A stretch of DNA of 64,000 nucleotides from Salinimonas iocasae. Its GTDB lineage: Bacteria > Pseudomonadota > Gammaproteobacteria > Enterobacterales > Alteromonadaceae. The notes under the pieces were generated by a model, which saw only the letters and a program-made list of their open reading frames with translations, made no database searches and was not told the DNA's origin. The stretch lies in assembly GCF_006228385.1 (NCBI RefSeq), contig NZ_CP039852.1, positions 1,116,001-1,180,000 on the forward strand, read 5' to 3'. Positions 13,148 through 24,755 of this stretch are shown piece by piece. Every line of letters starts with the position of its first letter. Position 1 is the first letter of the stretch. The position numbers were made by a program, and so were the translations under genes.

Positions 13148-14773
13148 ATGAAACGTACTTTTGCATCTTCAGTAAAGCGACCATTGGTTGCGGCAGCCAG
13201 TCTGCTCCCTTTAGCGGCGAGCGCACAAATCGCCAATGCCGATTTTGAAAGCTGGTCAGCAAACGGGCCGGATAGCTGGACAACGATAGATTCAGGCATA
13301 ACGGTGAGTCAAAGCAATAGTCTGACGTATTCGGGCAATGCTGCAGCCGCGATAGATGTACTCACAGGCGCTCAAAGTGATACCGACTTTCGGCAAAGCG
13401 TCGACGTAGAGGCGGGCAAAAGTTATGAGTTCAGTGTATGGGTCTATCATACTGAGGGGAATCTGGCGGCCCGAATTTATGTGGATGGGTATCACAATTA
13501 TTCCTCAGAAGCGCTGACCGGACAGTGGCAAAAACTGTCTTACAGCTATACAGCATCGACCTCGAAAACTATTGAAGTCGGCCTTCGTTTTTATGATCAA
13601 ACGGGGTTTGATGGTGTTGAGCGGGTCTATATAGACAACTTCAGTCCGGCAGTATCTGGCGGCACCGGTAACGGTTGTTCACAAAGCAGCGGGACGTTTT
13701 CTTTAACAACAGATAATTACGGTAGTGAAACCAGCTGGCAAATTACTGACAGTAGTAATCAGCAGGTGATAAGCGGTAGTGGTTATGCCAGCAATACGAC
13801 CACCGAAACACCGGTATGCCTGGCAGACGGTGACTATACATTAACGGTATCAGATAGCTATGGCGATGGCATTTGCTGCAGCTACGGCAGTGGTCAGTAT
13901 TCGCTGAGCGTGGCCGGACAGACTCTGGCAAGTGGCGGGCAGTTCGGTGCGCAGGATGTTACTGCATTCTCAGTTGGTAGTGCCGGCGGTGGCGGTTCAG
14001 ATCTAAGCGGCTACTACAGCAGTGCAGACGGGTTAACAGGCTTTGCACTTAAAACAGAGCTTTATAACATTATCAGAGGGCACAGCACCCAGTCTTATTC
14101 CGACCTGTGGACCTTTTATCAGAGCTACGGCGACGATAAGTATTACGAGAACGATGGCAGTATTCTGGATTTTTATTCAGAAAACCCGACAGGTAATGAC
14201 CCGTACAACTTTACCGCCGGCGCAGACCAGTGCGGTTCATACAGCGGCGAAGGCGATTGCTACAACAGAGAGCATGCATTCCCGCGTAGCTGGTTTGGTG
14301 GTGCGGTAGCACCAATGAATACAGATGTTCATCATGTGTTTTCAACAGATGGTTATGTCAACGGTCGCCGCAGTAGTTATCCTTATGGTGAGGTTGGTAG
14401 TGCCAGTTATGTCTCGTTAAACGGCTCGAGGTTAGGTAATGCGGCATCTGGTCTGGGTTATAGCGGCACTGTTTTTGAGCCTATCGATGCGTTTAAAGGT
14501 GATGTGGCTCGTGCTTATTTTTATATGGCTACCCGTTATGAGCCGAGCATTGGCGGCTGGCAGTACAATTCTTCCTATGGCGATGCGGTACTTGATGGCA
14601 GCGACGCTCAGGTATTCGAGTCGTGGTTCTTAACAATGCTCAAGCAATGGCATGCACAGGATCCTGTTAGCCAGGCAGAGCGTGATAGAAATGATGCAGC
14701 GTACAGCTTTCAGGGGAACCGCAACCCGTTTGTGGATCATCCTGAACTGGTTAGCGAAATCTGGGGCAACTGA
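13148..14773 (+). CDS. Secreted multidomain endonuclease I family nuclease
   Basis: This 541-residue exported protein has a signal peptide (ending near ASAQ), a jelly-roll carbohydrate-binding-like domain (about 28-165), a small Cys-containing module (about 175-275) with the motif DSYGDGICC, a Gly/Ser linker, and a C-terminal endonuclease I domain (about 285-541). The nuclease domain carries REHAFPRSW (374-382), DVHHVFSTDGYVNGRR and RNPFVDHPE, typical of the NucM/EndA beta-beta-alpha-metal family. It probably degrades extracellular DNA for phosphate or nutrients. The two N-terminal modules suggest attachment to polysaccharide or surfaces. A clear terminator follows. Confidence 0.9.
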   Translation: MKRTFASSVKRPLVAAASLLPLAASAQIANADFESWSANGPDSWTTIDSGITVSQSNSLTYSGNAAAAIDVLTGAQSDTDFRQSVDVEAGKSYEFSVWVYHTEGNLAARIYVDGYHNYSSEALTGQWQKLSYSYTASTSKTIEVGLRFYDQTGFDGVERVYIDNFSPAVSGGTGNGCSQSSGTFSLTTDNYGSETSWQITDSSNQQVISGSGYASNTTTETPVCLADGDYTLTVSDSYGDGICCSYGSGQYSLSVAGQTLASGGQFGAQDVTAFSVGSAGGGGSDLSGYYSSADGLTGFALKTELYNIIRGHSTQSYSDLWTFYQSYGDDKYYENDGSILDFYSENPTGNDPYNFTAGADQCGSYSGEGDCYNREHAFPRSWFGGAVAPMNTDVHHVFSTDGYVNGRRSSYPYGEVGSASYVSLNGSRLGNAASGLGYSGTVFEPIDAFKGDVARAYFYMATRYEPSIGGWQYNSSYGDAVLDGSDAQVFESWFLTMLKQWHAQDPVSQAERDRNDAAYSFQGNRNPFVDHPELVSEIWGN

Positions 14774-15390: not shown

Positions 15391-15684
15391 AACGGTAAAA
15401 AATAGTGGTTTTATCTATTGTCGCATGGAAATTATATCGCACATAAGTGTTCACATCGAAAAACAGCGCAATCGTACTAATAGCGGCTGGGATCAGCACG
15501 CAATGGTGTGGCGATGTAATCAAATGTCTTACAAAGAAGGGATGGTATTAGTGTTAGCGTCAGGGGAATATCTCATCAATACTTGTCAATTTCAGAGCCC
15601 TGGCGGCAATTGAGTAAACTATTCAGGAATCGAGCGTATCAATATCTGAAGATAGATTTTCAACAGATTGAAAGAGGAAAGCGA

Positions 15685-16113
15685 ATGGATAAGGCCGCAA
15701 AAACACTTAAAAAATTATGTGAAATGGACTTTGATGCTATTGAAGCTTATGAAGAAGCAATGAAACGCTTAGAAGATAAATCAATATCAGACAAATTGGC
15801 GGAATACAGAAGCGACCATATGGCGCACACCGATACCTTAAATACGCTGTTATCCTCGCGTGGGGAAGAAGTCGTAGACGGGCCTGACAGTAAAAGGGTC
15901 TTAACAGAAGGGAAGGTTGTTATCGCCGACTTACTTGGCGATAAAGCAATTCTTAAAGCAATGGTGGCAAATGAGAAAATTACGGTGAAAGCCTATAAAG
16001 AGGCCGCTGACAATGACGCGCTGAACGCCGAAGAAAAGAGTAAAGTTGCAGAACATTATGAAGACGAAAAACGTCATCATGACTGGATCAAGTCGACCAG
16101 CGAGAACATGTAA
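15685..16113 (+). CDS. Ferritin-like DUF2383 domain protein
   Basis: This 142-residue, highly charged all-helical cytoplasmic protein has a four-helix-bundle pattern and matches the DUF2383/PA2169-type ferritin-like family. Candidate metal ligands are visible in helices: DAIEAYEEAMK, AHTDTLN, and AEHYEDEKRHHDWI. Its function is not established; members are often stress-related. The ATG at 15685 is preceded by AGAGGAAAG, and the upstream in-frame codons are not needed. A hairpin terminator lies about 85 bases downstream. The roughly 295 bases between mntP and this gene hold no recognisable gene. Confidence 0.8.
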   Translation: MDKAAKTLKKLCEMDFDAIEAYEEAMKRLEDKSISDKLAEYRSDHMAHTDTLNTLLSSRGEEVVDGPDSKRVLTEGKVVIADLLGDKAILKAMVANEKITVKAYKEAADNDALNAEEKSKVAEHYEDEKRHHDWIKSTSENM

Positions 16114-16237: not shown

Positions 16238-18013
16238 TTACTCTTCCTCTGTGTCTTCGTCAGTTTCCGTTTCAGCTTCCTCGACCAGTACCGCACCCTC
16301 TTCGGTGAGGGTACCTTCAAATTCCACCACCGCGCCGGTTTCCAGCGCTGCCAGGAATGTCTCAACACTGACGTCTTCGCCGTCAACTTCCAGTTCACTG
16401 TTCTCATCAAAAAGTAGCTGATAGCCGCTGACAGTAACAGAGGTTTCTGAAATTGCTTCAACCTGACCTTCTACAGAAACTTCAGTGTCCTCAGCGTCAT
16501 CGTCTTCATCTTCGCCATTACCCTCGTTACCTTTTCCTGGTTTACCCTTATCTGGCATAACCTTGACTTCATCAGCTACCAGGCTGGTATCGCTATAATC
16601 ACCTTCCACTTTGACGCTAACAGCTTCATTTTCATCGATGTAAGTCAAAAAGGTCTCCAGTGACATATCACCTCGTCCTTCAAACTCAGTGTCCTGGGTA
16701 AAGGTAACGGCTACGCCCGCGACAGTCATTCCTTCAGCTGTTGCCTGAGAAACCTTGCCTTTGATTTCACCGTCGCGGTCATCCTCATCGATTCGCTTCA
16801 CTTTAAGCGCCATGACAGTACCATCATCAGTTTCAACTGATGCAATCTTGAGCAAATCGTTAACCAGAATATCGTCGAAGGTAAAGCGACGTTCTTCCAG
16901 TTCCGACTCATCTTCATACTGGGTATCGTCGTCAGCGACAAACGTAATGCCATTGACCACAAACGTTTGCGCGTCAGCATCAACACTGGTTACCGTGCCT
17001 TCTGTTTTGGTGTTGCTATCGCGCTTTTTAAACTCAACTTTTTCGGCAACCCATTTATCTTCGACCAGGCTTCCCTCAATATTCACCCAGATATTTTGCG
17101 TGAAGTCTTCACGAGTACCATCTTCAAAGTCAGTTTCTTCATCTAGTGCGAAATCGTAACGGTTAACTTTAAAGGTCCCGGCTGCTTCATCATAGCTGGT
17201 AACTACACCGGCTATGTCGACATCTTCAATATCGCTCATATCACGTGGTTGATCGTCAGATTCGCCCTCTATTTCAGTGGCAGTAAGTGCCGCGGAGGTT
17301 TCTGACGTGAGTGTACCTTCAACTTTCACCACCAGGCCATCAGTCAGGTCTTCAATAACCATCTCCTCGAAAGTAGCCTGACTGTAGTCTATGAGTTGCT
17401 GACCAATCAAGAATGTCTTTTCATCGGTATTCAGGCTGCTTATCTCACCGGCCAGTTTGACATCAGTATCTTCGGTCTCAAGTTTTACGAAGGTTGCGTA
17501 GAACCCATCTTCGGTGGCGTAACCACTCACTTCGACCATGTCGCCAACGGTCAGTAACTCGGCATCGGTTTCGTCAAACTCCGTTAAGTCATCAAAGTAA
17601 ACATTCTGTCCCAGTACCGTAAACTGTGAGTTGGCGTTATCAATAGCACTAACAGAACCCTGCAACGTTTCTTCGTATACAATTTCGGTGGCCTGTGGAT
17701 CGCTACCATCATCGGTTTGGTTCGCCATTACTCTGACGACCATACCCATTTTAAGCCCGGACTCCTGAGCACCACTTTCACCAGAGATGGTAAAAGCTGC
17801 ACTGTCTGATACATACCGTTTGCCGTTAACATACACACTACCAAACCCGGTTACGACCCCTTCAATAACAGTTGAGCCCGAGGGTGACTGTTCTGTTGGT
17901 GGTGCCGTATCCGGCGTGTCATTGTTCGCAACTTCAGTTTGTGAATCACCACCGCCACACGCACTCAGTGTGGTGGCAATAGCCAGTGCAATCAGGGACT
18001 TTCCGAACGTCAT
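16238..18013 (-). CDS. Lipoprotein with seven tandem DUF5666 repeats
   Basis: This 591-residue lipoprotein (lipobox LSAC, then GGGDS) is built from seven consecutive units of about 65-80 residues. Each has the pattern of a DUF5666 small beta-barrel: Gly-x-Val start, TFxVxG core, Thr-x-Phe/Tyr acidic strand, and a final GxxVxVxG strand. An acidic, Gly/Lys-rich linker lies before the last repeat, and the C-terminus is almost pure acidic residues. The protein is extremely acidic. Function is unknown; repeated small beta-barrels suggest a structural or binding role at the cell surface. The start was set at 18013 from the signal peptide and a GAGG box. Confidence 0.85.
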   Translation of the reverse strand: MTFGKSLIALAIATTLSACGGGDSQTEVANNDTPDTAPPTEQSPSGSTVIEGVVTGFGSVYVNGKRYVSDSAAFTISGESGAQESGLKMGMVVRVMANQTDDGSDPQATEIVYEETLQGSVSAIDNANSQFTVLGQNVYFDDLTEFDETDAELLTVGDMVEVSGYATEDGFYATFVKLETEDTDVKLAGEISSLNTDEKTFLIGQQLIDYSQATFEEMVIEDLTDGLVVKVEGTLTSETSAALTATEIEGESDDQPRDMSDIEDVDIAGVVTSYDEAAGTFKVNRYDFALDEETDFEDGTREDFTQNIWVNIEGSLVEDKWVAEKVEFKKRDSNTKTEGTVTSVDADAQTFVVNGITFVADDDTQYEDESELEERRFTFDDILVNDLLKIASVETDDGTVMALKVKRIDEDDRDGEIKGKVSQATAEGMTVAGVAVTFTQDTEFEGRGDMSLETFLTYIDENEAVSVKVEGDYSDTSLVADEVKVMPDKGKPGKGNEGNGEDEDDDAEDTEVSVEGQVEAISETSVTVSGYQLLFDENSELEVDGEDVSVETFLAALETGAVVEFEGTLTEEGAVLVEEAETETDEDTEEE

Positions 18014-18258
18014 AATAAATACCTCATTGTTACAGTGAGCTTCAGAATATGCGTTTACCATTCTTAAACAACAGGCTAGCAGTATACCAACCGATAAGTG
18101 CGCACCTTATGCCATAACTGTAACTTCGCGGATGGGCACTATGTATATGACGTGTAAAACTTTTTATTTAGGCTTTGTAAATTAAGAATTTAATTTTTCT
18201 TTAAAAAATGTGGAGGGTGATATTGCCTGATAAGCAGGGCTGAGTTTATTTTTCAGTC

Positions 18259-19272
18259 TTACACTGTCGGGTCATTATGTGATGTTACCGGCGTAGTGCC
18301 GCGCTCGGGCGCATCGTTTTGACGGAAACGGCCTATGGCAGAGGTGCCTATATCGTGAAATGGTCGGGTATAAGCCTGCACAACGTTGTGATGGCCGGCG
18401 TCCTGTCTGCCCAACCCGAAGCGTAGGCGCATGGCCCGCTTAGATAGCACCAGCGAGCCAAACATTCGATCCCAGACCGCCAGCGCAGTACCAAAGTTTT
18501 TATCAAAATGCTTTGGATTCGTGCTGTGATGAATCTGATGCTGTACCGGGCTGATAAACCATTTTTCCAGCTTGCCCCAACGCCATTTAACATGCGAATG
18601 ACGCAGGTTGCTGCCCAGCATATTGAAGGCAAAAACCAGCGCGTTGGCGCCCAGGATATCGAACATCGACAGCGCGGTGCCGAAAAAGTAGTAACTGATG
18701 CCCACAGCAAAACCCTGTGCAATGGCCATGCGGGTAGCATAAAGGAAGCTTTCTACAGGGTGAGAGCGGTACACGGTCATCGGCGTCAGTACCAGTGCGG
18801 AATGGTGAACCTTATGAAAATGCCACAAAAAAGGAATTTTGTGCATCATCCAATGCAGTAAGAAGCGCGTAAAATCGTCAAACAGAAACAATATCAACGT
18901 AAATGCACTGATAACAATGACACTATTTTGCGTAACCGGAGGCTGATAGCCGAAAACGCTCTCCAGAGCATCACTGATACCCAGTGCGATAGGCACCATA
19001 GTAAGCACTATCGGTGCCCACAGCAACGCTCTGATCAGGCGGTTTATCACATACAACTGATAATCGAGCCGGGCAGAGCGATGCAACCAGATTTTGCGAT
19101 TGAACAGTTGTCTTACAGCACCCTGTTGACCACGCAGGCCAAACTGAGTGGCTGTTACCAGCAAGCCAATAAGCAGTGCACCGAGCAGGTAGCCAGCAAA
19201 TAACCTGCTATTCGGATCAAGCACAGCTTTCGCCATTTGTCCGAATTCAGTTAGCAGCAGGTCTGTCATCAC
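18259..19272 (-). CDS. Membrane di-iron fatty acid hydroxylase / sterol desaturase family protein
   Basis: This 337-residue membrane protein has several hydrophobic helices and the eight-histidine pattern of the fatty acid hydroxylase superfamily: HWMMH (140-144), HFHKVHH (151-157), HSH (225-227) and HQIHH (245-249). These ligate a di-iron centre that hydroxylates or desaturates a lipid-like substrate. The substrate cannot be read from sequence. It is the last gene of the leftward iron-type operon, 15 bases after the TonB-dependent receptor gene. The C-terminal 50 residues are polar and lie beyond the catalytic core. Confidence 0.87.
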   Translation of the reverse strand: MMTDLLLTEFGQMAKAVLDPNSRLFAGYLLGALLIGLLVTATQFGLRGQQGAVRQLFNRKIWLHRSARLDYQLYVINRLIRALLWAPIVLTMVPIALGISDALESVFGYQPPVTQNSVIVISAFTLILFLFDDFTRFLLHWMMHKIPFLWHFHKVHHSALVLTPMTVYRSHPVESFLYATRMAIAQGFAVGISYYFFGTALSMFDILGANALVFAFNMLGSNLRHSHVKWRWGKLEKWFISPVQHQIHHSTNPKHFDKNFGTALAVWDRMFGSLVLSKRAMRLRFGLGRQDAGHHNVVQAYTRPFHDIGTSAIGRFRQNDAPERGTTPVTSHNDPTV

Positions 19273-19287
19273 TGGCTCCCTAAAGGT

Positions 19288-21507
19288 TTAAAATGCGTAT
19301 TTAACACCGAGCTGGAACTGGCGCGACATATTGGGGCGGGCACCATAGGGACGGCGGCTTACGATATCTTCGTTATCCAGCAGGTTGGTTACTTTGGCAT
19401 ACACCCGGCTTTGCGGTGTTAGCTGATAACCTGCTGACACATCCATATTCAGTAGCGCATCCGTCTCTTTGCCCGCCAGTGTGCTATCGCGTACATCCCC
19501 GGTAAGTGCCTGCTGCGCAGACTCAGGCATGCTGTCAGAATACGAGGTAAGAATATGGATATCAACCTTGTCGCTAACCAAACCCAGACTCACAGACACC
19601 ATATTCTCAGACAGATAAGGCACAGAAGCCCCTTCTTCGACGAAGCCCCACTGTGCGAACTCAGAATAGAATGTCTGATTAAATTCCGATTGTGTGTGAG
19701 TGTAAGTAACATTAAGCGGTAACGACCAGTCTTTCATCACCTGCCATTGACGCTGGTATGACGCTTCAACCCCGTACACATCGACATCGCCAGCCTGAAA
19801 CGTGGTATCTGTATCGCAACCGGCAGATATTGAACAGGATTCAATCAGATTAGAGTAATCATTATAAAAGCCAACGAGTTCAACACGCTGAGTGGGCTGG
19901 ATAAAGCGCCAGCCTGCTTCAAAGTTGTTACTCTGCTCGACGTCAATAGAGGCCGACTGAATAGGACTGGTCGGAACAAACCCCTGATGAAATCCGGCGA
20001 ACAGGGCATGCTCTCGGGTTAGCTGATAAAACGCGCTGATTGCGGGCAGCCATATCCGGGTGGATTTATTTTGAAAGTCCTGCTCGAAGCCCGGTGCTCT
20101 GTTCTGGTACTCGCCGTCAATAAATTCACCGCGGATACCGGCGGTCAGCGAAAGCGCGCCAAAGGATACGGTGTCGCTGGCATAAACAGAAAAAGCATCT
20201 GTTTGCTCAGTGTTGGTGGTGGTGGCACGCGTTGGCTCGCCGGTTAGCGCCAGCTCACCCGAGCGCATGAAATAGTTGGTAGCAGTATGATTACGCTGAA
20301 TTTCATCACTGTGATAACGTGCGCCAAACTCAACCTGATGGGCAAAGCCGGCCAAATTCAAATCCAGGCTGATATCCACCTGCACGCCCAGTGAATAATA
20401 TTCTCTGGCATTGTTGCCCAGTACAATTTTCTCGCGTACGGTGCTGTCGGATTGTCCGGTCAGTATGCCGTAATACCCTGCGTTTTGTTCGGTGGCAGGG
20501 TTAGTCAGAATTTGCTGCAGGGTAGGTATCTGTCCGCCCAGAGAACTTTCAAACCCGTTAATTTTATTCCAGGCGCGTTCAAAGTTGTTGCGATAGACAC
20601 GGGTTGTTACGTCAAACCAGTCGCCAGCCAGAAAGTGCGTCAGTTGCAGCTGATTATGTTCCCAGTCCATTTTGTCCAGCGCTGATGCAGCATATCGCCG
20701 ATAGGGATCTTCAGCAAAATCGTCGTCAGTCAGTCCCAGGTAGGTTTCGTTGGAGGTTTCCTCACTGTAGCCACCCTTAACCTGCACATACTGATCATAG
20801 TGCGCGGTACTCAAATCGTAGCGCCATTTGGCCATCACATCGATTTTTTCAAAACCGGTATCTCCACCGTTATCCAGCGACTTAAACCCATCACTGCCAA
20901 TGGCGATACCTTCTACCAGAAAACCGTGGTCGTTGATGGTATTACCATAATAGCCATGACCTTTGTAGTACCCGTCTGTTCCGCCTGCAATATCGAGCTG
21001 ACCAGTTTGTTCGCCAGGTATCTGGCGGGTGACCAGATTCAGTGCGCCGGCGACCGTGTTGGGACCATAAGCAATAGTAGAAGGGCCCTTAGTGACCTCT
21101 ACCGCCGTCATTTTACTGACCATAGGAAAATAGTAAGCTGCCGGTGCCGAGTAGGGCGCCGGGCCAATCAGCACGCCGTCTTCCATGATATTAATTTTTT
21201 TACTGCGCTCGGGCGTTACGCCACGAAAACCGATATTGGGGCGTAGTCCGAAACCGTCTTCCTGACGAATATTAACACCGGGTACAGTGGCAAGTACCCT
21301 TGAGATATCGTCAAACTCAAAGGCTTCAAGTGCTTCTTCAGTGATCAAAGTGACCGAACCTGCAGTGGTATCAAGCTGTTGCTGACTACCAATAATACTA
21401 ATGTGCTCTAAACTGCTATCAGCCGGCTCGGCCATGGCTGATGCTGAGTAGGTCTGGCAGGCTGCAGCGACGGCAACCGACAGAATTCGTAATACGTGCT
21501 TTTGCAT
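19288..21507 (-). CDS. TonB-dependent outer-membrane receptor (FecA-like)
   Basis: This 739-residue receptor has a signal peptide, a probable TonB box (EHISIIGS), a plug domain (about 45-165, with VPGVNIRQEDGFGLRPNIGFRG and the GPSTIAYGPNTVAGALNL block) and a 22-strand barrel ending in a terminal Phe (QFQLGVKYAF). The plug pattern is that of FecA-type ferric-citrate and related receptors, but it lacks an N-terminal signalling extension. It likely imports an iron complex. It is 16 bases downstream of the imelysin gene and 15 bases upstream of the hydroxylase gene, in an operon with a Fur-box match. Confidence 0.93.
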   Translation of the reverse strand: MQKHVLRILSVAVAAACQTYSASAMAEPADSSLEHISIIGSQQQLDTTAGSVTLITEEALEAFEFDDISRVLATVPGVNIRQEDGFGLRPNIGFRGVTPERSKKINIMEDGVLIGPAPYSAPAAYYFPMVSKMTAVEVTKGPSTIAYGPNTVAGALNLVTRQIPGEQTGQLDIAGGTDGYYKGHGYYGNTINDHGFLVEGIAIGSDGFKSLDNGGDTGFEKIDVMAKWRYDLSTAHYDQYVQVKGGYSEETSNETYLGLTDDDFAEDPYRRYAASALDKMDWEHNQLQLTHFLAGDWFDVTTRVYRNNFERAWNKINGFESSLGGQIPTLQQILTNPATEQNAGYYGILTGQSDSTVREKIVLGNNAREYYSLGVQVDISLDLNLAGFAHQVEFGARYHSDEIQRNHTATNYFMRSGELALTGEPTRATTTNTEQTDAFSVYASDTVSFGALSLTAGIRGEFIDGEYQNRAPGFEQDFQNKSTRIWLPAISAFYQLTREHALFAGFHQGFVPTSPIQSASIDVEQSNNFEAGWRFIQPTQRVELVGFYNDYSNLIESCSISAGCDTDTTFQAGDVDVYGVEASYQRQWQVMKDWSLPLNVTYTHTQSEFNQTFYSEFAQWGFVEEGASVPYLSENMVSVSLGLVSDKVDIHILTSYSDSMPESAQQALTGDVRDSTLAGKETDALLNMDVSAGYQLTPQSRVYAKVTNLLDNEDIVSRRPYGARPNMSRQFQLGVKYAF

Positions 21508-21523
21508 AAAATAACTGCTCTTA

Positions 21524-22741
21524 TTAGTCGTTGTCGCCAGCAGAAGTGGCAGGCAGTTCCAGGGCCAGACTCTGGATAAAATCAGTCTTCACAGTGTCGG
21601 TGACATCTTTTACTTCTGAGTGAAGTTGTTCAACATCCTCTGTCTGCTCACTTAGCAGTGTTGAATATGAGCCAGTAAGGCTTTCGGCGTGACTGATAGC
21701 TGCATTGATGTCAGTAAGTAACCGTGTCGCAGTATCGCTGTCGCCGACATCATTCAGAAAATCATCGAACCCGGTATTGTCTGCTTCACCGCCTAGGTAC
21801 AGAGCTTTCAATCCTTTCAGGTTGGCAATAATGTTTTCTAAAGAGTGGTCAGCGTAAACCGATTCAGCATTTTGCGGGCAAGGGGAGGTGCCGCAGTCAT
21901 TCGCGATGATACCTACCGGGGTAGCAATTTTCGCGTCTTTGGTGACCTCTGTGATGTAAAACATCGCATCGCTGATATCGTTAACAGCCTCCAGAGAGAC
22001 TGCGAACGGGCTATCCGGCTGACCGGCATTTTTTAAAACCTCACCATACCCCTGTTCGCCTTCAAAGGCAGCGACCAGTGTATTGGCATTCGTCACCAGA
22101 TCTTGTGCAAGTAATTGCGAATAGGCACAACGGGCCTGACGTCGATCCTGCTCGGTGCGGTTATTCCAGCCCTCAGGCTCGGTGCCAGCGACGGTACACT
22201 GGTGATTTAAATCTGAATTAAAAAGCGTATATTCCAGTGCATCCAGGCCACGTCTGCTGGGCGTTCGCGTGGTTAAATCATACCCATCGGACTCTGCCAG
22301 CACCACATCCTGGTCGATGGCACATGCACTTACGTTAGGCCATGAATAAATTTTGTTGCGCAGCGCATAGCCATTATCAGCTAACGGACCTATTTGCATG
22401 ACTTCGGCCAGTTGCCAGGTGGACATCGTTGCCTTCCAGCTTTGCTGCGCCTGCTCCTGTGCATCAGAAGCATCGCCAGATGTCAGCGTTTCACAATATG
22501 CCGTTATGTCGGCCTGAAGCGCAGTGGTATCTTCTGCAAATTTGTTATAGGTGGGCAGTAAAACATTATCTACAACTGAAGCCAGTAGCAGTGATTCGTT
22601 GAAATTGTTTTCTACAGGTTGTTCCGGCGCACTGTTATTACCATACTGCGCTCCCGTATCGCTGCTGGTGCTCTCGCCGCAGCCGGTTAACAAACCAGCC
22701 ATCGCAACAGCGATAGTGTTAACCAGTAAAGAACGTTTCAT
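21524..22741 (-). CDS. Imelysin family lipoprotein (M75 / IrpA-like)
   Basis: This 405-residue lipoprotein (lipobox LLTGC) has the imelysin fold of two helical bundles. A family signature is visible at about 164-175, RRGLDALEYTLF, where the GxHxxE motif of many imelysins has Asp instead of His. Imelysin-type proteins are widely tied to iron uptake (IrpA, EfeO M75 domain, ICMP). Proteolysis is doubtful for many of them, and the altered motif here argues for binding rather than catalysis. It lies between the DUF4856 gene and the TonB-dependent receptor gene and probably works in the periplasm with the receptor. Confidence 0.9.
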   Translation of the reverse strand: MKRSLLVNTIAVAMAGLLTGCGESTSSDTGAQYGNNSAPEQPVENNFNESLLLASVVDNVLLPTYNKFAEDTTALQADITAYCETLTSGDASDAQEQAQQSWKATMSTWQLAEVMQIGPLADNGYALRNKIYSWPNVSACAIDQDVVLAESDGYDLTTRTPSRRGLDALEYTLFNSDLNHQCTVAGTEPEGWNNRTEQDRRQARCAYSQLLAQDLVTNANTLVAAFEGEQGYGEVLKNAGQPDSPFAVSLEAVNDISDAMFYITEVTKDAKIATPVGIIANDCGTSPCPQNAESVYADHSLENIIANLKGLKALYLGGEADNTGFDDFLNDVGDSDTATRLLTDINAAISHAESLTGSYSTLLSEQTEDVEQLHSEVKDVTDTVKTDFIQSLALELPATSAGDND

Positions 22742-22751
22742 AGGGACTCCA

Positions 22752-22787
22752 TAAAAAAGACACCGCTGCTATGAAAGGCAGCGGTGT
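22752..22787 (-). terminator. Terminator-like hairpin inside the iron operon
   Basis: On the minus strand a 10-bp perfect stem (positions 22760-22769 with 22778-22787, core ACACCGCTGC) with an 8-base loop is followed by six T residues. It lies between the DUF4856 stop and the imelysin ribosome-binding site. It should lower transcription of the three downstream genes relative to the first. Confidence 0.82.
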
Positions 22788-22800
22788 TCGTCGTGTCGGT

Positions 22801-24531
22801 TTACCAGTTGGCTACATTTTCGCTATCAAAGCTATATGCCTGCTCAAGAATATCGCGAGCCTGCATCAGTTCAGCCTGATAAGCAGCAACCGCATCGCTG
22901 TCGGTCAGCACTGGCTTGTCACCCATGAAAGCATGTAACTGGGCAAACTGTTCATCTGTCACAGGAGAGAAAGGATTAAACTGTAAGCCCAGCGCAAAGC
23001 CTTTCATCTCAGACCAGTGCTTGGCTAAATCGCTGTAGTTGAAATCATCTGTACCAATTGCGTCAAGGTCGGCGTGGGTATCATTGATGTAGTGAACAAC
23101 GGTAGCTGCAATTGCACGTTCCCAGGCATCCAATGCACTGTCACGGTACTCTTTAAGCTCTTCAAGTTGCGCATCGGTCAGTGCTGTACCTGCCGTATCG
23201 TTTAGCAATTCACGCCCCATCAGAAACGCATTCATCGCCTGAGCAGTATAATCAGTATCTGTAGTTGCACCCAAATCACGCTTTGCCGCGTTGGTAGACT
23301 GACCAAAATTGTACTCAGCATTGAAGTCGATAGCATCGTCGCCATCGGTATCATGGTAGCCTTGCCAGTCGTCACGACCGCCTTTACTGGCAATTTCTTC
23401 GTCAGTGTATTCAAGGTAATCGCGGGCTGCACCAAAGTAACCGAAACCTTCGTCGAACTGGTGCTCAAGAGACGTGAAATTTTCATCACTGTTAGTGTGG
23501 TCTGACAGCAGCCCTTTATCTGGTGTGTCGCTGTCCAGATAGTCATCCGCTGCCTGACTGTATGTGACAGACATAAGCAGAAACTTTTGAATGAGTTGCT
23601 TAAGGTCGCGACCGTCATCGGTAAGATAAATTTTAGTAATGTCGTTACCAAAAGGATCCTGACGCAAGGTTCCGCCTAATTGTGCATCGGCATTATCTGC
23701 CAGCTCATTAAAAAACATGCGCACCAGGCCTTCAGGGGTAGTGCTACCGGCATCACCCCAACCAACAAACTCGCCGTTATTCCAGTCTTTATGTTGACCG
23801 ACCTCATCATTACCGGCAATTTTACCTACCAGATTTTTACTGGATGATGAGACATCTGCCAGCGTTTGCTGTACTGCCGCCGGATCAGTGGTAGTGAGCA
23901 GGGCGCGCTGTGACAATGCATCATAATCGCTCACGTCGAAATACGAATTTAATGCCACAATAACATCTTCACGGGTCGTGAAGTTGCCGTCGGTATCAAA
24001 GGCTGCGGTATCACCTAACTGTGTATCAATCAGGATATTTAAATCATTGATTAACAGATGACGCGCAACCTGACCGCTGTAAGAAACCGCTGATTCACCA
24101 TTTACAAAGGCACTTTCAAACCCGTAAAAGTCCAGCGCGTCGTTAATATCGATAGTCAGCGTTTTGGTGTAGGTCTCGTCACCGCTGTCAGTGACAGTCA
24201 CATCAACATCAACGGTAGTCTGCGTCTCATAATCAAGGGCTACACCGTCAGCCAGAGAAAGCGTAGTACCATCAATAACAAACTGTTCATTTTGCGTGGT
24301 AAAGGTAAATGTTTCGTCGCTGTCAGCGTCAGTTGCAGATAGCATTCCGATCTCTGCGCCTGCTGCATTCTCATCCACACTGGTAGAAGACACTGAAATA
24401 TCAGTAGGTGCAGAATTTGAGGGAGGCGGAGTTGGCGTAGGATCATCATTATCAGATGATGAACTACCACCACATGCTGAAACCAGAAGAGAACTTGCAA
24501 CGGCGACGGCCAAAAGCTTTTTGTTAAACAT
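22801..24531 (-). CDS. DUF4856 domain lipoprotein with N-terminal cadherin-like segment
   Basis: This 576-residue lipoprotein has lipobox VSAC, a Ser/Asp/Pro low-complexity linker (about 22-45), a cadherin-like segment (about 42-130; APTDISVSSTSVDENAAG, then ATDADSDETFTF), and a large helical DUF4856 domain (about 133-576). DUF4856 has no established biochemical function; it recurs near imelysins and TonB-dependent receptors, which suggests an iron-related surface role. It is the first gene of the operon and nearest the Fur-box match, and a terminator-like hairpin after it implies it is made in larger amount than the rest. Confidence 0.85.
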   Translation of the reverse strand: MFNKKLLAVAVASSLLVSACGGSSSSDNDDPTPTPPPSNSAPTDISVSSTSVDENAAGAEIGMLSATDADSDETFTFTTQNEQFVIDGTTLSLADGVALDYETQTTVDVDVTVTDSGDETYTKTLTIDINDALDFYGFESAFVNGESAVSYSGQVARHLLINDLNILIDTQLGDTAAFDTDGNFTTREDVIVALNSYFDVSDYDALSQRALLTTTDPAAVQQTLADVSSSSKNLVGKIAGNDEVGQHKDWNNGEFVGWGDAGSTTPEGLVRMFFNELADNADAQLGGTLRQDPFGNDITKIYLTDDGRDLKQLIQKFLLMSVTYSQAADDYLDSDTPDKGLLSDHTNSDENFTSLEHQFDEGFGYFGAARDYLEYTDEEIASKGGRDDWQGYHDTDGDDAIDFNAEYNFGQSTNAAKRDLGATTDTDYTAQAMNAFLMGRELLNDTAGTALTDAQLEELKEYRDSALDAWERAIAATVVHYINDTHADLDAIGTDDFNYSDLAKHWSEMKGFALGLQFNPFSPVTDEQFAQLHAFMGDKPVLTDSDAVAAYQAELMQARDILEQAYSFDSENVANW

Positions 24532-24583
24532 TCCTTACTTCTCTTATTACGTTAAGTGAAGCATGACTATACCAGTTTACAAT

Positions 24584-24598
24584 TGAGAATCAATATCA
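24584..24598. promoter_or_regulatory. Fur box candidate between the iron operon and the cation-efflux gene
   Basis: The sequence TGAGAATCAATATCA (reverse TGATATTGATTCTCA) matches the 7-1-7 Fur consensus TGATAATNATTATCA with two mismatches. A second half-site-like element (TGATTCTCATT) lies at 24619-24629. The site is about 53 bases upstream of the DUF4856 start, where an iron-dependent repressor would block transcription. It could also affect the divergent gene starting at 24756. Confidence 0.75.
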
Positions 24599-24755
24599 TT
24601 CGCAATGGTTTTTGCGCCTGATTCTCATTACAGTTGCACGTACTGATTAAAGCGAACCGAATTATACAAATTGCCATAAATACCGAAGACTTCGCGTATT
24701 TTTGCCCGGAATTGAATTCTAGAAGCACCCTGAGGCTGTAAAGGAACACTGACAC

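Follow-up and report, generated by a model that had tools for sequence, protein, structure and literature searches.

Among the described systems that contain an imelysin, the ICMP/IrpA-type operons PA4370-PA4373 and VC1264-VC1266 are Fur-regulated and linked to iron uptake, according to the available part of Xu et al., 2011 (PMC3143127), and in EfeUOB/M systems an M75/imelysin domain is the periplasmic iron component, as described for the EfeM structure in the accessible part of PMC9174327. The operon considered here lies in a stretch of 64,000 nucleotides from Salinimonas iocasae (contig NZ_CP039852.1, positions 1,116,001 to 1,180,000), hereafter the window, whose own numbering is used throughout; the genome that holds it comprises 4.16 Mb on 2 contigs, with a completeness of 100. 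The operon encodes a DUF4856 lipoprotein, an imelysin, a TonB-dependent receptor, and a membrane protein of the FA_hydroxylase family (FAH). This cluster is real and conserved, and it is very probably an iron-acquisition operon. It is a variant of imelysin/TonB iron uptake with a putative membrane oxygenase: the system is of a known kind, and the partnership with the hydroxylase is new.

All four genes are read from the minus strand. They encode the DUF4856 lipoprotein (22801..24531, 576 amino acids; PF16148, 43.3 bits against a cut-off of 22.3), the imelysin lipoprotein (21524..22741, 405 amino acids; PF09375, 135.1 bits, gathering cut-off 23.5), the TonB-dependent receptor (19288..21507, 739 amino acids; PF00593, 122.6 bits, and PF07715, 58.5 bits), and FAH, classed as an integral membrane di-iron enzyme (18259..19269, 336 amino acids; PF04116, 76.9 bits, cut-off 31). 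The gaps between them measure 59, 16, and 18 bp, the last becoming 15 bp if FAH starts at the GTG at 19272 instead of the ATG at 19269, and these coordinates bear out the original prediction, which had described four same-strand genes with 15-59-base gaps. The order DUF4856-imelysin-receptor-FAH was examined in 79 named loci, the best among 145 relatives that patterns built on the window's own protein retrieved; two of the 79 (L040 and L071) end at contig borders, and 74 of the 77 testable loci are colinear. Another, from Marinobacter daqiaonensis (L079), is rearranged but complete, with the order imelysin-FAH-DUF4856-receptor. The nearest relative found is Salinimonas profundi, with 93% identity in DUF4856. 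Among 345 genomes of the order, 24 have a DUF4856-domain match, 25 have an FAH of at least 300 bits, and 24 have both; the four genes are colinear in 19 of the 24 DUF4856 genomes, namely the window's own and 18 of the 20 other stretches checked. In one further genome (G350), DUF4856 and FAH form a direct pair, and in three (G382, G288, and G410, the stretch of the last lying outside those checked) they are on separate contigs, the contig of G382 stopping immediately past the receptor. Some assemblies are common to the named loci and to the genome surveys, which therefore overlap, and gene calls were mechanical, a six-frame search being needed for L168 and L208. The four genes are thus commonly adjacent, not rarely so, and the suggestion of an iron-acquisition module, with conserved co-occurrence of its genes, is well supported.

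A sample chosen by DUF4856 alone tells which partner is the most constant. PF16148 searches found the domain in 5 of 274 genomes of the class, in 7 of 249 of the phylum, and in 9 of 149 of one family of another class (10 loci), which combine to 18 distinct loci. FAH stands within the DUF4856 cluster in 16 of these, as five four-gene clusters and 11 direct pairs, whereas imelysin belongs to the DUF4856 unit in 6 and the receptor in 7; the window's receptor was the sole query in the receptor searches, so distant receptors may have been missed. The two exceptions are G085, with an HTTM gene instead, and G210, whose contig begins within DUF4856 and continues with a receptor, without FAH in the 8 kb examined. 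In the other class, DUF4856 is directly followed by FAH in all 10 loci (9 genomes), and imelysin and a detected receptor are absent from the unit. FAH is therefore the most constant neighbor of DUF4856 across two classes, ahead of imelysin and receptor, and its initial description as an unexpected member of the cluster is not supported. The pair-type DUF4856 proteins, as seen by eye in the 10 N-termini printed, have a signal peptide of the ordinary kind, without a lipobox.

In the four-gene type, both exported proteins are predicted lipoproteins, as had been proposed: the lipobox Cys is invariant in 36 DUF4856 rows (Cys20, behind a signal peptide) and in 34 imelysin rows (Cys21). The DUF4856 protein further comprises a cadherin-like domain at residues about 37-134 (Cadherin, 29.3 bits, cut-off 28.8), which filled the results of a fold search, and a helical DUF4856 domain with an invariant C-terminal Trp576. 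In a profile comparison with imelysin, the alignment was limited to the end with the signal peptide or to a weak stretch near the N terminus, and no paper in the open-access literature searched names the DUF4856 family. The imelysin is the only PF09375 match in the whole genome at E <= 1e-8. Its motif reads GLDALE, in which the His of GxHxxE is missing, and none of the 34 rows has a His at this site; therefore, it is not filed as ICMP/IrpA type. Its GxxxxE form resembles the IPPA type in the available part of Xu et al., 2011 (PMC3143127).

Compared with the ICMP/IrpA-type operons as they appear in the part of PMC3143127 available, the present operon shares Fur-type control (here predicted), an imelysin, and a link to iron uptake, but has DUF4856 and FAH, and lacks a di-haem peroxidase and a GxHxxE imelysin. 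An M75/imelysin domain is likewise common to this operon and to EfeUOB/M as presented in the accessible part of PMC9174327, whereas the present operon includes a TonB receptor of its own and no EfeB, and the genome has no FTR1 match. Neither a di-haem nor a DyP peroxidase was found among the four genes, the search for one being confined to them, and a search of the genome for FTR1 gave no match; assignment to an ICMP/EfeUOB-type system was rejected on these two grounds. A single FecCD permease is encoded, away from the operon. With no FTR1 match and the one FecCD elsewhere, no obvious gene here accounts for transport across the inner membrane. The nearest solved relative of the receptor is FecA (profile 151.6 bits, next best 55.9), yet the receptor is far below the FecA equivalog cut-off (NCBIfam, 104.4 bits against 1100), and identity with FecA was rejected. 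One locus (L162, genome G052) has DUF3450 and MotA/ExbB-type genes behind the four genes on the same strand, an arrangement like that in TonB2-like energizing systems.

FAH belongs to PF04116 by its Pfam score, above the cut-off, and by its conserved His clusters. All 34 four-gene-type rows retain H139, H143, H152, H155, H156, H170, H224, H226, H244, H247, and H248. Because the His-bearing loops are rich in Lys and Arg, the positive-inside rule places the active site probably on the cytoplasmic side. With OlsE and Scs7, FAH shares the PF04116 domain and the His ligands; its best structural match, a weak one, is Scs7p. Members of PF04116 act on lipids, and the only NCBIfam model that matches FAH is that of the ornithine-lipid hydroxylase OlsE. 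FAH could then be a membrane-lipid hydroxylase that is induced at low iron and remodels the envelope, its product not being bound by the uptake proteins. However, its OlsE score of 56.6 bits is far below the equivalog cut-off of 475 bits, and FAH as OlsE was rejected; unlike OlsE and Scs7, FAH stands in an iron-uptake gene context. In addition, a general envelope change would not be expected of an enzyme that follows one protein, DUF4856, across two classes, often adjoining it. A lipid-remodeling role is therefore unlikely, though it deserves to be taken seriously.

The neighborhoods of more distant FAHs were surveyed with every FAH that the order survey lists at 170-300 bits (36 in all), with 13 weaker ones as controls, and with the loci found through DUF4856. 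Among FAHs of 255-300 bits, an imelysin lies within 8 kb in 21 of 22, comprising all 20 chosen by FAH score and, of the other two, the four-gene locus L165 and not the pair L166. Twelve of the 20 belong to imelysin-DHOR-imelysin-FAH clusters (DHOR, di-haem oxidoreductase), of which nine have an FTR1 gene no more than 8 kb away; the other eight are divergent from imelysin(-DHOR). None of the 13 distant control FAHs (below 100 bits) has an imelysin within 8 kb. In a maximum-likelihood tree of 75 FAHs, every linked FAH falls into one 59-row clade with moderate support (93/87), from which the distant FAHs stand apart (100/100); the imelysin-DHOR-linked FAHs form two separate groups within this clade. 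The tree omits the truncated L209, and L175, with an ICMP imelysin beside it and its DHOR cut short, is labeled as having no link. The two iron-linked arrangements meet in the pair-type locus L167 (genome G815), where a divergent imelysin and di-haem oxidoreductase start about 1 kb from the DUF4856-FAH pair.

Other iron genes also accompany FAH. An FbpA-like gene lies within 8 kb of five pair-type loci (L145, L205, L206, L208, and L210, the last four from the other class; the pair of G350 is counted among the five) and of 6 of the 13 members of an FAH family in the range of 170-255 bits, f194 (L187, L188, and L190-L193), and in the four-gene locus L232 it stands directly behind FAH on the same strand. 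FbpA-like neighbors near the pairs and in L232, FTR1 in nine loci, and the cytoplasmic placement of the His cluster by charge would suit an FAH that handles iron itself, its His cluster accepting, reducing, or sensing Fe delivered by a permease, with no oxygenation. The complete hydroxylase ligand set is nevertheless invariant, and this genome yields no FTR1 match, both of which make such a role decidedly unlikely.

An unrelated enzyme, an HTTM protein resembling the vitamin K-dependent gamma-carboxylase (VKGC), can occupy the place of FAH. L163, the locus of G085, reads DUF4856-imelysin-HTTM/VKGC-DCC1-receptor, and FAH is absent from the 9 kb examined; HTTM there directly follows imelysin, as FAH itself does in L079. 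The VKGC lumenal domain is found in 2 of 258 class-sample genomes, G085 and G025, in both between imelysin and a TonB receptor, the latter (L225) reading DUF5122-imelysin-HTTM/VKGC-receptor. A third case comes from Bacteroidota, covered here through plasmid records: plasmid NZ_AP025293.1 of Persicobacter psychrovividus (L213) carries imelysin-DHOR-imelysin-HTTM/VKGC, in which HTTM takes the slot held by FAH in the linear imelysin-DHOR-imelysin-FAH clusters. Imelysin was not found within 9 kb of three other plasmid HTTM genes. In L163, the residues that align with Lys218 and His160 of human VKGC (numbering derived from the alignment) are conserved; both of these have a role in the human enzyme. 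In these three relatives, VKGC thus resembles FAH in its position beside imelysin, where FAH would stand, but the two belong to unrelated protein families, and the active site of VKGC is on the lumenal side whereas that of FAH is probably cytoplasmic. Adjacency of HTTM/VKGC to imelysin in three loci, together with the conserved Lys218 and His160 equivalents, might suggest that FAH, HTTM/VKGC, and di-haem enzymes are alternative modifiers of imelysin or DUF4856 that create metal ligands in these proteins. We regard this as very unlikely, as DUF4856 and imelysin are exported while the His boxes of FAH are placed in the cytoplasm by the positive-inside rule, and as the same slot can also hold DUF1513.

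The operon is likely under Fur control, to judge from the region upstream of DUF4856. A Fur-box-like site, TGATATTGATTCTCA (24584..24598, minus strand), lies 52 bp from the DUF4856 start codon. It matches 12 of the 14 specified bases of TGATAATNATTATCA, which we take as the Fur consensus; the site named in the original prediction stands, but its count of 13/15 does not, since the N had been counted as a match. The window contains four sites with at least 12/14, this one included, over its 64 kb, and 7 of 2000 dinucleotide shuffles of the intergenic region upstream of DUF4856 produced one. Of 79 upstream regions in relatives, two were too short; among the other 77, the best site reaches at least 11/14 in 33, whereas the rate is 7.4% in shuffles and 5.9% in the 628 other upstream regions from the same loci. 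Under this rigid consensus, 44 of the 77 lack a site of at least 11/14, so Fur control, though likely, may not extend to every relative. Fur-like sites of 11-13/14 also lie between FAH and imelysin in all four divergent loci examined, a count made with no control set. Within the operon, a strong hairpin with a T-run behind it (22753..22789, minus strand) occupies the 59-bp gap between DUF4856 and imelysin and is a possible partial terminator. A permissive detector finds such an element in this gap in 42 of 77 relatives, compared with 14 of 770 mononucleotide shuffles; the receptor-FAH gap has one in 23 of 61 cases, and the region 3' of FAH in 3 of 75. If this putative terminator acts as such, DUF4856, as the first gene, may be made in excess over the rest.

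Taken together, the linkage of FAH, its single clade, its invariant His residues, the HTTM slot, the Fur site, and the FbpA and FTR1 neighbors support the reading that we consider, on balance, probable: FAH would be an inner-membrane oxygenase that makes something the uptake proteins need, in a Fur-controlled ferric-iron system. The core of the operon would be the conserved pair of exported DUF4856 and inner-membrane di-iron oxygenase. The DUF4856 and imelysin lipoproteins and the FecA-like TonB receptor would handle a ferric complex at the outer membrane and in the periplasm, while FAH, with its His cluster in the cytoplasm, would use O2 on a membrane-soluble small molecule, such as a lipid-like ligand or a quinone. 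The modified molecule would then be needed by the system to bind, move, or release Fe(III); the direction of both iron flow and catalysis is what we infer from these assignments. If FAH and VKGC serve one system from opposite faces of the membrane, a membrane-soluble small molecule would be their simplest shared substrate. That a membrane oxygenase step is integral to imelysin/DUF4856 iron uptake, with the unrelated FAH and HTTM interchanging in the cluster, is a more tentative proposal, which we hold as a possibility with the balance somewhat against it. A 2-hydroxylase such as Scs7 yields an alpha-hydroxy acid and VKGC a malonate-like group; the ligand of FecA is ferric citrate. By analogy, the reactions of FAH and of the VKGC-like enzyme might both provide Fe(III) with a hard oxygen donor, a chemistry that we put forward as speculative and, as it stands, unlikely.

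Several observations weigh against an FAH that is integral to iron uptake. None of the 17 FAHs of 170-255 bits has an imelysin nearby, and DUF4856 is represented there only by one truncated pair-type row; 13 of these 17 form family f194, which lies inside the linked clade with neither imelysin nor DUF4856 in its vicinity. One of the 13 distant controls, too, has an FbpA-like gene within 8 kb. Relatives of the Persicobacter imelysin occur in 36 plasmid records; six other loci among these were inspected, and no FAH or HTTM was found within 7 kb of imelysin in them; in plasmid loci of Azospirillum, Sulfitobacter, and Paracoccus, DUF1513 stands behind the second imelysin, so a gene at that slot need not share the function. 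In the receptor, of the arginines that we assume to contact citrate in FecA (in mature numbering, with an assumed signal-peptide length), only Arg380 aligns with an invariant Arg (receptor Arg368); the Arg438 position aligns with no Arg, and Arg365 falls outside the alignment. FAH lies 161 kb from DUF4856 in G544, apparently the same assembly as that of L045, and it is on another contig in G288, where 1.36 kb is left past the receptor without FAH. It does not adjoin the other genes in L045 and L073, being absent from the stretch examined in the latter, and G465 has FAH with no DUF4856 match and no imelysin match (E <= 1e-8). Loci such as L045, L073, and that of G465 would be expected if FAH were a passenger, an iron-using enzyme retained through shared regulation or history. 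Such a role is highly improbable, because the linkage recurs in several arrangements and in two classes, and because FAH is a steadier neighbor of DUF4856 than is imelysin or the receptor. By eye, the lone FAH of G465 (L148) stands between apparent ffh and rpsP/rimM/trmD genes, the place where several Colwellia loci appear to have the whole operon; L148 is a probable remnant of the operon in which FAH alone has been kept.

As for the surroundings of the operon, the next gene downstream of FAH (16238-18061, minus strand) encodes a 607-amino-acid lipoprotein-like protein with six DUF5666 stretches. A DUF5666 protein gene also lies 3' of FAH in Salinimonas profundi (L002) and in no other row printed, and it was therefore left out of the operon. 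A DUF2383/ferritin-like protein is encoded on the opposite strand 2.1 kb past FAH (15583-16113, plus strand), and an apparently secreted Endonuclease I that carries a carbohydrate-binding-like domain at its N terminus is encoded at 13148-14773 (plus strand). In nine Shewanella loci (L026, L028-L030, L032, L034, L038, L039, and L044), a same-strand open reading frame of 234-236 amino acids lies right behind FAH.

Finally, DUF4856 gains from these results a defined partner and a defined context, and, in two classes of Pseudomonadota, a lipid-type oxygenase family becomes tied to the uptake of ferric iron. If the proposed oxygenase step is true, bacterial VKGC homologues would also gain a physiological role, namely the provision of a hard-oxygen ligand or a modified carrier for Fe(III).

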